Assembly (NCBI GenBank): GCA_017848795.1
Contig: JAFIHG010000050.1
Location: 62,001-126,000, forward strand
DNA length: 64,000 bases
Direction of reading: 5' to 3'
From: Candidatus Nanopelagicales bacterium
GTDB taxonomy: Bacteria > Actinomycetota > Actinomycetes > S36-B12 > CAIYMF01
Shown here: positions 17,058 through 21,943 of the stretch, one piece after another
Position numbering within the stretch: position 1 is the stretch's first letter
Layout of the letters: every line of letters starts with the position of its first letter
The notes under the pieces: generated by a model
Database searches by the model: none
What the model saw: only the letters and a program-made list of their open reading frames with translations
Told to the model about the DNA's origin: nothing
Program-made: the position numbers and the translations under genes

Positions 17058-18337
17058 CCATCTGGGACTTCGAGTTCGGCAGCAACGGCGACACGATCAA
17101 GACCTCGGACGGGTTCGCGTCGGTCAACAAGACGCCGAAGATCAGTACGGCGTGGAAGGCGGGCGGCACCCGGTCGGCAGACTGCTCGACGACCAGCAAC
17201 GACAGCCCGAACCTGGGCGTGTCCGAGGGTGGGCGCACGACCGGTTGGGAGACGGTCGCGTTCCAACTCGACGGGCGGCCCTCGGCGAACCAGATCGTCA
17301 TGCAGGGCATGGATAGTTCGTTCGCCACGACCCTATGGCAGGTCCGGGTACTGACCGACGGGACGGTGCAGTTCCGCGACGCCTTCTCCGCGAAGTACAC
17401 GTCTACGGCCACCATCTCCACCTCGAAGGCGGACTATCGGTTCGCGCTGCTGATCGACGGCACCACGGTGCGCCTGAAGGTGTACGACGGGGCCAACTCG
17501 TCCTCGACCCTGCTCGACTCGGGGAACCTGTCGAGCGCGTACTCGAAGGGCTCGTGGGACGGGGTGCGGTACGGGCAGGTGGCCGCGGCCACGTGGGGGA
17601 TTCTGCTCGACAACATCAACCGGGTCACCGGAACCACCGAGCCGGGAGCGGCCGTGTCGCCGCCGACGATCGACCTCGGCGGCAACCGGACCATCCAGGA
17701 CTACGCGTCCGCCGCGTTCACCCCGACCGTGACCGGCAACACCGGCACCACCACCTACGCGTGGACGGTGCAGTCCGGGCCGTCGACGAGCTCGGGGCAG
17801 TTCTCCGCGCCGAGCAGCAAGAACACGACGTTCACCCCGGCGGGCGGACCCGGCACGTACACGCTGCGCCTGTCGGTCACCGACGACTCCGGGGTGACCA
17901 CGAAGGACGCCACGGTCACGGTGACCGCGTTGCAGGCCGGTGACACCATCGCCGCCGTCACGGTGTCCAGCGGCTGGACCGCGTCGGCCGGGACCGTCCT
18001 GGACTGCCTGTCGGACGGCGACTCCGGCACGTACGTGACGAGCAGCAACAACCCGTCCAGCCTGGACCTGAAGGTCACCCTGCGCGGCATCATCCCGCCG
18101 ACCGGGAACCTCGACGTGTGGCTGCGCGACCTGGGCCGTTCTGGTGGTACGGGCACGGTGGACGTGTCGCTGTACAAACCGGACGGCACCACGCTGGTGA
18201 AGAAGGTCAGCGGCACGACCGCGCCGACGTCCGCGGCGGACACGAAGGTCACGTTCCTGGCGGCGGACATCTCCGGGGTGAGCGCGGCGCAGTGGCGCGC
18301 GGGCTGCGTGCTGCTGGTGGAGGCGACGGCGTCGTGA
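17054..18337 (+). CDS. Tail-tip protein with lectin-like and PKD-like domains
   Basis: This 427-residue protein starts at a GTG overlapping the upstream stop. Residues about 1-200 ('WDFEFGSNGDTIKTSDGFASV', 'LLIDGTTVRLKVYDG', 'WGILLDNINRV') resemble a concanavalin-like jelly roll. Residues about 210-300 ('TYAWTVQSGPSTSS', 'GTYTLRLSVTDDSG') are a PKD-type Ig fold. The C-terminal third is another beta domain ('NLDVWLRDLGRSGGTG'). All modules are typical carbohydrate-binding or structural parts of exposed tail proteins. No catalytic site is recognised. Confidence 0.68.
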   Translation: MTIWDFEFGSNGDTIKTSDGFASVNKTPKISTAWKAGGTRSADCSTTSNDSPNLGVSEGGRTTGWETVAFQLDGRPSANQIVMQGMDSSFATTLWQVRVLTDGTVQFRDAFSAKYTSTATISTSKADYRFALLIDGTTVRLKVYDGANSSSTLLDSGNLSSAYSKGSWDGVRYGQVAAATWGILLDNINRVTGTTEPGAAVSPPTIDLGGNRTIQDYASAAFTPTVTGNTGTTTYAWTVQSGPSTSSGQFSAPSSKNTTFTPAGGPGTYTLRLSVTDDSGVTTKDATVTVTALQAGDTIAAVTVSSGWTASAGTVLDCLSDGDSGTYVTSSNNPSSLDLKVTLRGIIPPTGNLDVWLRDLGRSGGTGTVDVSLYKPDGTTLVKKVSGTTAPTSAADTKVTFLAADISGVSAAQWRAGCVLLVEATAS

Positions 18338-18504
18338 CCACCGTCCGCCTGTCCGGCATCGACGCGGTCGGTTCGCAGCCGGTGACGGTGGCGCTGTCCG
18401 GTATCGACGTCGAGGGCGCGCTGCCGACCATCCCCGACGACGGCATCTGGCTCGCGGTCGACGGTACGTACCGCCCGGCCGTGCTGTGGATCAACACCCC
18501 CTGA
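18334..18504 (+). CDS. Small phage protein of unknown function (56 aa)
   Basis: This short ORF begins with a GTG overlapping the stop of the tail-tip gene. It has two copies of an 'LSGID' motif ('VRLSGIDAVGSQ' and 'VALSGIDVEGA') and ends 'YRPAVLWINTP'. No membrane helix and no known family. It is predicted to be translated because of the coupling and because it fills the space before the next ribosome-binding site. Confidence 0.5.
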   Translation: MTTVRLSGIDAVGSQPVTVALSGIDVEGALPTIPDDGIWLAVDGTYRPAVLWINTP

Positions 18505-18518
18505 CCCGAGGAGTAGCA

Positions 18519-18554
18519 ATGCCTGACGTGTTCCTGCCCTACCTCAAGCGCTGA
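18519..18554 (+). pseudogene. Remnant start of the holin gene, cut off by the HNH element
   Basis: After GAGGAG, an ATG opens a frame of only 11 codons, MPDVFLPYLKR, then TGA. The intact holin 717 bases downstream begins MPDVILPFAKSW. Aligning the first 35 bases of both copies gives 25 identities, with the match ending at 'GCTG', where the stub turns into TGA and the intact gene continues with TGG. This reads as the original 5' end of the holin gene left behind when the HNH gene arrived. It still has a good ribosome-binding site and may be translated into the short peptide. Confidence 0.75.
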
Positions 18555-18579
18555 TACCATCTGTGCCACAAGCAAAGGC

Positions 18580-18614
18580 GGCCCCGAGCGACGCGCCAAC
18601 GTCCACTCGGGGCC
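18580..18614 (+). other. Hairpin in the HNH leader
   Basis: A perfect 9-bp stem (GGCCCCGAG at 18580-18588 with CTCGGGGCC at 18606-18614) with a 17-base loop lies between the holin stub and the HNH gene. There is no T-run after it. It could slow transcription, hide the HNH ribosome-binding site or be part of the mobile unit. Confidence 0.5.
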
Positions 18615-18631
18615 TGACGGAACACCTGACT

Positions 18632-18643
18632 AGGAGGTGATCC
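18632..18643 (+). promoter_or_regulatory. Extended Shine-Dalgarno of the HNH gene
   Basis: AGGAGGTGATCC pairs over 12 bases with the conserved 3' end of bacterial 16S rRNA (GGATCACCTCCT). It ends three bases before the ATG at 18647, so the GGAGG core has normal spacing of about nine bases. No other gene in the prophage shows such a long match. Confidence 0.8.
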
Positions 18644-18646
18644 GCT

Positions 18647-19243
18647 ATGGCGGATCGTATCTGCACTGTCGAAGGCTGCCAGCGGGAGATGCTCGCCCGC
18701 GGGGTATGTAGCCCGCACTACCAGCGTTGCTCGCGCGGTTCGATGCCCTGGCCCGCATATGTTGTGCTGCCCCGGCCGTCGCTGCCCATCGCCGAGCGCG
18801 CCTTGCGGAGGATCGAACGCCGGGAGCCTGGTGAGTGTTGGCCGTGGACCGGCTCGCTCTCGACCAACGGATACGGACAAATTGAGGACCTGGCGACCGA
18901 CGGTACGCGGCGACCGCGACGAGCCCACCGCGTCGTGTACGAGGCATTAGTCGGACCGATTCCAGATGGCCTCGACCTCGATCACACATGCCACACCAGG
19001 GATCGCTCGTGCCCCGGAGGAGATACCTGCCCCCACCGGGCCTGCTGCAATCCAGCGCATCTTGAGCCGGTCACGCGCAGCGTGAACCTCAAGCGCGGTC
19101 GAAACCGCTGGCGCGAAAAGACGCACTGCCCACAGGGGCACGCCTACGACGCCGAGAACACGCGGTTCTACCGCGGCCGGCGGTACTGCCGCACCTGCCA
19201 GAACACAAAGCACCTCAAGAAGAAGGAGCACTCCAATGCCTGA
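18647..19243 (+). CDS. Freestanding HNH homing endonuclease
   Basis: This 198-residue protein has an N-terminal zinc-binding segment ('CTVEGCQREMLARGVCSPHY'). The HNH nuclease core follows: 'CWPWTGSLSTNGYG', 'RRAHRVVYEALVGPI', 'LDLDHTCHTR', then Cys pairs and 'CCNPAHLEPVT' with 'NLKRG'. A C-terminal zinc knuckle 'CPQGHAYDAENT..YCRTC' is typical of phage HNH endonucleases. It sits between a holin stub and the intact holin. Its last codons overlap the holin start, and its TGA lies across holin codons 2-3. The inferred role is cutting phages that lack it near the holin start and spreading by repair. The target site is not shown. Confidence 0.88.
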   Translation: MADRICTVEGCQREMLARGVCSPHYQRCSRGSMPWPAYVVLPRPSLPIAERALRRIERREPGECWPWTGSLSTNGYGQIEDLATDGTRRPRRAHRVVYEALVGPIPDGLDLDHTCHTRDRSCPGGDTCPHRACCNPAHLEPVTRSVNLKRGRNRWREKTHCPQGHAYDAENTRFYRGRRYCRTCQNTKHLKKKEHSNA

Positions 19244-19439
19244 CGTTATTCTGCCTTTTGCCAAAAGCTGGGCGGCGCTCATCGTCGCCGTCCTGACCGG
19301 CGTCTCCGCCGTCGCGGACTTCCCGCAGTGGCTGACCGTCGTCCTCGCCGGACTGTCGGTCGTCGCGGTGTACGGCGTGCCGAACGGTGCCGCGTCCGAG
19401 TCGACCGCGGACCCGCTCGACGACATAAGCGAGCACTGA
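19236..19439 (+). CDS. Holin (small, two membrane helices)
   Basis: This 67-residue protein has two hydrophobic segments ('WAALIVAVLTGVSAVADF' and 'WLTVVLAGLSVVAVYGVP') and a polar acidic tail, matching small actinophage holins that form membrane holes for lysis. It lies directly before the endolysin and overlaps it by one base. The ATG follows GAAGGAG within the end of the HNH gene. The first ten codons are richer in A/T at third positions (GTT, ATT, CCT, TTT, AAA) than the rest, consistent with replacement by the HNH element. Confidence 0.8.
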   Translation: MPDVILPFAKSWAALIVAVLTGVSAVADFPQWLTVVLAGLSVVAVYGVPNGAASESTADPLDDISEH

Positions 19440-20092
19440 TGCCGACGGTGGCGCTCGCGCCGGGCATGGTCACCGACCGGCGCACGGCGCACATGCTCGC
19501 CGAGGCCGAGCGCCTGTTCGGCCGGACGCTGTACTACGCGCAGGGCTCCTGGTCGCACGCGCAGGCATCCGGCTCGACGCACGCCGGGTCCGGCGCGGTC
19601 GATGTGCGCACCGTCCCGCTCGGCGGCGACCACAAGGCGAAGATGCGCCTGGTGCGCGCCCTGCGTGAGGTCGGGTTCGCCGCCTGGTACCGGGAGTACA
19701 CCCCCGGACTGTGGGGTGAGCACATCCACGCCATCGCCATCGGCGCGCCGGGCCTGTCCTCCGGTGCCGCCTGGCAGGTGGCCGAGTACCGGGCGGGCCG
19801 CGACGGGCTGACCGGGCGCCGCCCCGACCCGAACGCCGCACAGTGGGACGACTACGGCCGGACGTGGGAGAAGTACAAGCACGCCAACCCGAAAGTCACC
19901 AAGGCGACCGGGGCGCGCGTGTGGGGCACCCCGTACGTGAAGTCGACCAAGGCGGGCCGCCGCAAGCGGGGCGAGCGGGTCCCGGTCGACGGGCACCGGG
20001 CCTGGCTGAACCGGCGCGGCAAGCCCGTGACGTGGCTGCGCCTGCACAACGGCCGCTGGGTGAAGGCCAAGCGCACGGACTGGCGCGGGTGA
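19439..20092 (+). CDS. Endolysin, peptidase M15-like
   Basis: This 217-residue lysis protein is coupled to the holin by an ATGA junction. The N-terminal half has the zinc peptidase pattern of the M15/VanY-like family: 'SGSTHAGSGAVDVRTV' supplies His and Asp, and 'GEHIHAIAIGA' supplies the last His. It likely cleaves peptide cross-links of host peptidoglycan. The C-terminal 70 residues ('VWGTPYVKSTKAGRRKRGER', 'RLHNGRWVKAKRTDWRG') are basic and may bind the cell wall. There is no signal peptide, so release depends on the holin. Confidence 0.82.
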   Translation: MPTVALAPGMVTDRRTAHMLAEAERLFGRTLYYAQGSWSHAQASGSTHAGSGAVDVRTVPLGGDHKAKMRLVRALREVGFAAWYREYTPGLWGEHIHAIAIGAPGLSSGAAWQVAEYRAGRDGLTGRRPDPNAAQWDDYGRTWEKYKHANPKVTKATGARVWGTPYVKSTKAGRRKRGERVPVDGHRAWLNRRGKPVTWLRLHNGRWVKAKRTDWRG

Positions 20093-20905: not shown

Positions 20906-21793
20906 TCAGGCGGCCGGGCGCGGCGGGCCGATCGAGTTCACCGCCGCGCGCAGTCGCTGATCAGGCAGCTTCGCGTAGATCTCCGTACTCTGAACGCTCT
21001 TGTGCCGCAACGCCTTCTGCGTCGCGTAGATGTCCCCCGTCGAGGCGAGCACCGCGGTCCCGTAGTAGTGGCGCAACTGGTGCGGAGTGCCCTCGACCCC
21101 GGCCCGGCGGATCGCCCGCAGGATCGCCAGCCCGACGCTGACCCGCGAGACGTGTCCGGCATCCCGAGACTGCGAGGGGAACCAGTAACCGCTGCGCGGC
21201 ATCGTGGCGGCCAGGTCCTCGACGCGCCAGTGCAGTGGCACGGGTGCGGCGTGGCGGCCCTTGCCGAGCACGTGCAGGTTCCCCAGTCGCAGATCCTCTC
21301 CGCGCACCTTCGCGATCTCGTGGACCCGTAGGCCGGCGAACGCGCCGAGGGTGACGTAGGCGCGGGTGTTGCCGGTGCGCGGGTCGCCGCAGGCCGCCAG
21401 GACCGCCAGCACGTCCTGCTCCGACAGCGGGCGCGGCTCACCCTTGATGGCGCGGTACGTGCCGTCGATCGTCGCGGTCGGGTTGTCGGCGCGTCGCCCG
21501 GTGCGCACCAGCCAGGCGTACCAGGCGCACACCTGCGCCCAGTAGGTCGCGCGGGAGTTGTCGCTCACGGTCAGGCCGTCGAGCCAGGCCTCCACCTGCT
21601 CGCCGCTGGCCTCGCGCGGGTCGAGGTCGCGGGCCATGCGCCGGATGGTGCCTACCCGCGAGCCGATGGTGCGCTCCGACATGCGCCGCTTCGGGTCTGT
21701 CATCCACGCGCGCCAGGCCGCTAGAATGTCCTCTAGCGTCTCGGGAAGCGGCAGCGCGGGCATGGTCCATTGTTGCGCGTTGAGCGCACACAT
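20906..21793 (-). CDS. Phage integrase, tyrosine recombinase
   Basis: This site-specific recombinase carries out prophage integration and excision. The N-terminal SAM-like core-binding domain includes 'TYWAQVCAWYAWLVRTGRR'. The C-terminal catalytic domain has Arg in 'FAGLRVHEIAKV', Lys in 'LGKGRHAAPVP', 'HQLRHYYGTAVL' (HxxR), 'RHKSVQSTEIYAKL' (His and the nucleophile Tyr). The start chosen is ATG at 21793 ('MCALNAQQW'); the frame is open to 21844, so an earlier start is possible. The gene lies about 100 bases from the tRNA-like attachment site and points away from it, as for many tRNA-integrating actinophages. Confidence 0.9.
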   Translation of the reverse strand: MCALNAQQWTMPALPLPETLEDILAAWRAWMTDPKRRMSERTIGSRVGTIRRMARDLDPREASGEQVEAWLDGLTVSDNSRATYWAQVCAWYAWLVRTGRRADNPTATIDGTYRAIKGEPRPLSEQDVLAVLAACGDPRTGNTRAYVTLGAFAGLRVHEIAKVRGEDLRLGNLHVLGKGRHAAPVPLHWRVEDLAATMPRSGYWFPSQSRDAGHVSRVSVGLAILRAIRRAGVEGTPHQLRHYYGTAVLASTGDIYATQKALRHKSVQSTEIYAKLPDQRLRAAVNSIGPPRPAA

Positions 21794-21898
21794 CGTGACT
21801 ACCACTCCCCCGTCGGCTTGAGTTCTACCGACAGTGGTCGTCACCTGTTCAGGCCGCTACAGGCGACGTTTGGGTGAGCGTCCGGTCGAAGTCCCTAC

Positions 21899-21943
21899 CT
21901 TCGGAGCAGAAGGCCGCAGGTTCAAATCCTGCCGCGGGCACCC
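21899..21943 (+). other. Prophage attachment site: 3' part of a tRNA-Arg-like gene
   Basis: The sequence matches a tRNA from the anticodon loop to the 3' end. The loop is CTTCGGA (anticodon TCG, Arg). The T-arm is GCAGG-TTCAAAT-CCTGC (21916-21932). The 3' acceptor strand is CGCGGGC plus discriminator A. The 5' half is missing: the bases before the loop do not pair with the 3' anticodon strand, and no GCCCGCG acceptor start lies upstream. This is the pattern of a phage attachment site where the intact tRNA remains at the other prophage end, here left of the window. Anticodon identity is inferred from loop position. Confidence 0.75.

Follow-up and report, generated by a model that had tools for sequence, protein, structure and literature searches.

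Homing endonucleases are thought to persist in harmless places or within self-splicing introns and inteins. The closest known parallel to the element characterized here is provided by the mORFs of fungal mitochondria, which have been described for atp6 of Allomyces and for atp6, atp9, cox2 and nad3 of Glomus (PMC3630166). As in our locus, an ORF encoding a homing-type endonuclease is located near a gene end, a diverged end replaces the native one and a remnant of the latter is left behind. The copies of the fungal gene ends differ mostly by synonymous exchanges and share 64–81% of their nucleotides and 94–100% of their amino acids (PMC3630166). However, the fungal elements are mitochondrial, involve LAGLIDADG or GIY-YIG nucleases and are found at gene 3' ends, whereas the elements reported here reside in phages or prophages, encode HNH_3 nucleases and mainly concern 5' ends, which are supplied with a ribosome-binding site (RBS) and a coupled start codon; two cases involve 3' ends. 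Among phage systems, the mob genes of T4 and the HNH genes of cluster J mycobacteriophages (PMC2988022, PMC3706429) resemble our element in nuclease type, in their frequent insertion around lysis cassettes and in the replacement of flanking sequences, and they resemble its sister case Malisha in their sporadic distribution among close relatives, but they have been described as inserted between genes. ShiLan, which occurs in actinophage methylases (PMC11855218), is an HNH homing element located within a coding sequence that does not destroy the gene. In contrast to our element, its sequence maintains the open reading frame of the host gene and encodes the HNH protein in another frame, and neither a stub nor a duplicated gene end was reported. 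The engineered HomeR drive (PMC7968924) also cuts a gene near its end, homes in and carries a re-coded end of 22–27 amino acids, but this is a synthetic Cas9 system and the analogy is one of logic, not of kinship. In the open-licence literature searched, we found no description of a phage HNH element that carries a gene end, and the searched passages of Barth et al. and of a Skunavirus survey (PMC10448857, PMC12724721) do not mention one. Priority is not established by this search.

The window, by which we mean the whole 64-kb stretch of DNA that was analysed, covers the right-hand portion of a roughly 41-kb prophage that resides in an actinobacterial genome. A gene for a tyrosine integrase (20906–21844, reverse strand) is adjoined by a tRNA 3' fragment (21895–21942), and a 96% copy of this fragment was found 41 kb upstream and outside the window (G000:C24:42610–42657). 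We read this repeat as the attR and attL sites of the prophage. The stub, the HNH gene and the holin-like gene, in this order and all on the forward strand, lie between tail genes and a gene for a peptidase-like lysis protein. The stub (ATG at 18519, TGA at 18552–18554) encodes the peptide MPDVFLPYLKR, is preceded by a GAGGAG motif (18508–18513) and is interpreted as the displaced original 5' end, with the old RBS, of a small membrane-protein gene. The intact HNH gene (18647–19243) encodes a freestanding endonuclease of 198 amino acids, which matched PF13392 (HNH_3, E=1e-9) and phrog_826 (E=5e-46) and contains, as seen in an alignment, the DH...CNP.HLEP HNH core as well as CxxC pairs. An HNH domain in an independent ORF is a criterion of free-standing phage HNH homing endonucleases, and it is met here. 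The restored gene (19236–19439) begins with MPDVILPFAKSW, encodes a 67-amino-acid holin-like small membrane protein, and its ATG lies 717 nt downstream of the stub ATG. Its RBS, AAGGAG (19223–19228), is located within the HNH coding sequence, and the HNH stop codon TGA (19241–19243) spans its codons 2–3. This anatomy and the restored reading frame are directly visible. The next gene of the lysis cassette (19439–20092) overlaps with the holin-like stop codon and encodes a peptidase-like protein with a SGSTHAGSGAVDVRT...EHIHAI motif; it did not match any entry in Pfam or PHROGs, and its homologues in other actinobacterial genomes share up to 44–54% identity. Pfam and PHROGs did not yield a holin assignment for the 67-amino-acid protein either, and the term holin rests on its size, its hydrophobicity and its place beside the peptidase-like gene. 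A distant homologue sharing the motif VYGVPNGAA was detected in locus L003.

RNA folding predicted a strong G+C-rich hairpin between the stub and the HNH gene (18580–18614), which was present in both the MFE and the centroid structures (z-score of the region −2.0). A perfect inverted repeat (GATCCGC-TATG-GCGGATC, 18639–18656) places the HNH start codon in the loop of a predicted hairpin, and translational control of the HNH gene is conceivable on this basis. PtaRNA1 was considered as another RNA element at the locus and was rejected since its Rfam match was far below the gathering score.

The similarity between the stub and the start of the holin-like gene is unlikely to be due to chance. When the 35-mer at 19236 (19236–19270, codons 1–12 of the target) was compared with all positions on both strands of the window (about 128,000), the stub was the best non-self match with 25 of 35 identities, and the next-best match reached 20, that is 5 fewer. 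At the peptide level, the stub ranked first among the 4,126 start codons of the window when compared with the N-terminus of the holin-like protein (score 35 vs. 23 for the next). The GC3 value was 0.50 for codons 1–12 of the holin-like gene, 0.95 for the remainder of this gene and 0.91 for the stub. Both copies cease to be similar within a Trp codon (stub, ...CGCTG/ATACC; gene, ...AGCTG/GGCG), and the element's own sequence starts precisely where the similarity breaks off (TG/A vs. TG/G). Reading the sequence in this way, the TGA of the stub probably represents a former TGG codon that was split by the insertion. The initial annotation, which was made from the sequence alone, had located the feature at 18519–19272 with a spacing of 717 bases and the HNH stop across codons 2–3, had counted 25 identities over the first 35 bases and had described a recoded copy with A/T-ending codons. 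All of these claims held.

Our main reading, to which we assign a probability of roughly 0.75, is that an HNH homing element was inserted into a lysis-cassette gene and carries a diverged replacement of the start it displaced; cleavage, homing and resistance are inferred. According to this model, the freestanding element would have inserted inside codon 12 of the small lysis-cassette gene. It would comprise, in this order, the HNH gene, an RBS and the diverged first 12 codons of the target in frame with the gene body, and the original 12 codons would have been left upstream as the stub. By inference from known phage homing endonucleases (PMC2988022), the HNH protein may cut or nick the uninterrupted gene near the junction. 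Repair off an element-bearing copy, with the stub side and the gene body serving as putative homology arms, would then copy the element in. The rewritten start would keep the gene expressed, and it may no longer be a site for the nuclease because many of its positions differ from the old start.

Independent information was obtained from Gordonia phage Malisha (locus L008). Its HNH protein, gp29, and the one encoded in the window share 39% identity. In Malisha the HNH gene sits within the lysin B gene, which is uninterrupted in close relatives such as Spooky, Squiddly, CheeseTouch and others. Over 83 nt the Malisha stub is identical to the beginning of lysin B in Spooky, and it then switches to the HNH element. 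In contrast, codons 1–35 of the restored Malisha lysin B share only 69 of 105 nucleotides (66%) and 26 of 35 amino acids (74%) with Spooky. The codon differences in this part comprise 17 synonymous and 9 nonsynonymous ones, whereas codons 36–100 are 88% identical at the nucleotide level. Thus, the native copy resembles the element-free relative and the inserted copy is diverged, as is the case for mORFs. For Malisha it is shown that the stub is the start of the uninterrupted gene and that the rewriting is local. The rewriting does not end at the insertion point but continues for about 24 nt, and it thus affects the sequence on either side of the presumed cut site. Presence of an HNH gene in one phage and its absence from the same locus of a relative is a criterion for homing endonucleases, and Malisha and Spooky fulfil it.

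We then asked how frequently this design occurs. The screen involved 169 HNH loci whose stop codon was readable; these were derived from 80 IMG/VR and 80 genome contigs (minus a few lacking the stop), nine loci from phage records and the window. A first, unanchored protein screen was swamped by low-complexity G+C-rich frames, and start-anchored, composition-filtered versions were used instead; further cases were accepted on score plus inspection of the DNA. Here, we found at least eight further loci with a design like that of Malisha and the window, so that recurrence is shown for related nucleases of phages that are themselves unrelated. In Cantare the stub reads MHDRSVVEEYDTIALSELKPF and the ParB-like gene MHERSVVEEYDTMRLQDLTPF. 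A serine integrase gene is the target in Cryobacterium (L105; stub ..LYLRQSTHREES, gene ..IYIRQSTAREES) and a RusA-like gene in a Burkholderiaceae MAG (L137; MNINFTIPGTPVAKG and MMISFTIPGAVVGKG); other replaced targets are unknown genes. Loci L091 and L118 have the same stub/HNH/replacement anatomy, in L054 the stub is fused in frame with the HNH ORF, and in L056 the HNH gene runs antisense to the target. Two mirror cases concern 3' ends. In L095 the upstream gene ends with IIDWQVFKELIEGSDYE-stop and the remnant past the HNH gene with IIDWEVFKELIRDSDYE-stop, and in a Hymenobacter locus (L132) the copies share 33 of 48 amino acids. In the same-strand 5' cases, including the window, the HNH stop overlaps with the restored start, which suggests translational coupling. 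Over 11 cases with 213 aligned codons, we counted 153, 181 and 78 identities at codon positions 1, 2 and 3, respectively, and 88 of the 138 codons specifying the same residue used a different codon. Such third-position-heavy divergence is expected of two copies that have both evolved as coding sequences. For L105, L137 and L132, HNH-free comparators were too distant or absent.

A score of at least 47 was reached by 9 of 169 true HNH flanks and by 3 of 305 control placements next to the HNH gene of these loci; the three control hits look like within-gene repeats. When flanks were swapped between loci, the maximum of 676 comparisons was 46. The window, L054 and L118 scored below 47 and rest on start-codon anchoring and context. 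In a wide screen the score alone is a modest discriminator, and the frequency of about 5% is a rough value for the best-matching loci of one HNH family. We consider these loci a recurrent kind of freestanding HNH element that provides a diverged replacement for the displaced 5' or 3' end of its target, with cleavage being inferred. A duplicated gene end with one copy on each side of the HNH ORF, which is a criterion of mORFs, is present in the window, Malisha, Cantare and others. A LAGLIDADG or GIY-YIG nuclease in a fungal mitochondrion is not, since the window contains an HNH_3 protein in an actinobacterial prophage. The window element works like a fungal mORF but is not a member of this group.

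The relatives of the prophage itself were less informative. A close relative of the 67-amino-acid gene was not found by tblastn in phage records, in 195 related genomes and in 395 genomes of the class, and scans of viral and genome contigs for the holin-like gene yielded distant relatives only. The same was true when an HNH-free relative was sought via the DNA pattern of the stub start, the endolysin and a tail protein. In the absence of an HNH-free relative, it is unproven that the window stub represents the ancestral start. Only 12 codons are common to both copies. Fifteen viral contigs (L185–L199) match the stub DNA pattern, but the short peptide that they encode, MPDVFLPYLHSYPMY(S/L)HAMCH, is unrelated; it appears to represent a conserved short ORF of other phages that overlaps with the stub peptide by chance. 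The initial annotation had interpreted the locus as a homing element with a recoded target start, and this interpretation is supported by the sister case and the further loci. It had predicted that the sequence of an HNH-free relative would start like the stub and continue with the common tail. This was met for Malisha and Spooky, whereas its own prophage yielded no close relative for the comparison. Neither of the patterns it had named as refuting was found: both MPDV ORFs without the HNH gene were not seen in the phages searched, nor was a separate small gene resembling the stub. Its suggestion that an altered cleavage site spares the gene remains an inference without cleavage data.

The strongest alternative is that the replacement end is the 5' end of a divergent natural homologue, which was co-converted during a transfer of the HNH gene from one phage to a distant relative. 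Selection for rewriting would then not be needed and resistance would be a by-product. We consider this slightly less probable than not, and it is compatible with the main reading. In its favour, free-standing phage endonucleases are known to co-convert their flanks (PMC2988022), the counterpart architecture in fungal mitochondria was read as horizontal transfer (PMC3630166), and the copies also differ in amino acids (9 of 35 codons in Malisha). Against it, no donor was found: among six natural 5' ends compared with the rewritten Malisha end, none was closer than Ecliptus (71% of nucleotides), although the remainder of lysin B is 85–86% similar to this phage. Moreover, the rewriting is sharply limited to the neighbourhood of the insertion. 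Whether rewriting was selected or a divergent donor supplied the end is unresolved, and the two are not mutually exclusive.

The remaining alternatives are all very unlikely. The stub might be an independent small ORF or a relic of tandem duplication, with the HNH gene landing between the copies later. It does have its own RBS, and two small membrane proteins are common in lysis cassettes. However, the similarity ends inside one codon at the start of the HNH element, the Malisha stub is the interrupted gene itself, the pattern repeats with serine integrase, RusA, ParB-like and lysin B genes, and the sequences searched did not contain a relative that has two full-length MPDV genes but lacks the HNH gene. 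The likeness of the two MPDV starts might also be due to chance, since only 35 bases were compared and 1 of 353 shuffled pairings in the anchored screen equalled the score of 35. Against this, the stub leads all window positions by 5 matches, both copies lie at RBS-preceded start codons on either side of the HNH gene, and sister cases exist. Finally, a group I intron or intein-like insertion that splices the stub to the gene body, with an incidental second start, would fit the facts that HNH genes are often intron-borne and that cluster J actinophages carry an intron-borne endonuclease (PMC3706429), but no Rfam intron family was detected at E up to 5 over 17800–20000, the HNH gene has a complete stop and the restored gene a complete RBS and start, splicing would duplicate the stub codons because the copy repeats them, and Malisha and L095 show the same layout with different sequences. 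An intein was rejected separately, since the stub ends in TGA, the stop codon of the HNH gene, at 19243, does not lie in the reading frame of the target and there is no through-open extein frame.

If the main reading is correct, an element supplied with a replacement for the gene end can occupy conserved coding sequence, and its removal becomes costly. Such elements would alter the ends of lysis, recombination and partition genes and could help to explain the end-mosaicism of phage lysis genes. They would be natural counterparts of engineered rescue drives, and a fast experimental system is provided by the Gordonia phages Malisha and Spooky, which are sequenced isolates with a laboratory host. 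A bolder reading, against which we lean slightly, is that home-and-rescue HNH elements are natural and widespread in phages and attack the conserved ends of valuable genes. In this joint claim, a selectively rewritten, cleavage-proof end (5' or 3', in either orientation) would allow essential genes to be invaded without the help of introns or inteins, and the target gene would be broken if the carried end were lost.

Two additional loci showed possible end duplications, namely L153 (407–945; MNPTCELPGC and MNPLCEICGL) and L120 (2365–3130; ..TARLALLR-stop and ..DARLALL-stop). Both are borderline, being within the control range or ambiguous. Mycobacterium phage Piper2020 gp23 (L007:2863–3591) was considered as a second example and rejected, since this HNH gene directly precedes an unchanged gp24 start; thus, not every HNH gene of the family replaces a gene end. 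Misha28 lacks the gp23 HNH gene, and this pair represents a plain insertion for contrast. In L009 (961–1549), an antisense HNH gene is located between the two halves (VTGFSPQGA and MTEIYDADVPRVDLVDKGANG) of what appears to be an XkdF-like phage protease gene, which was apparently split.
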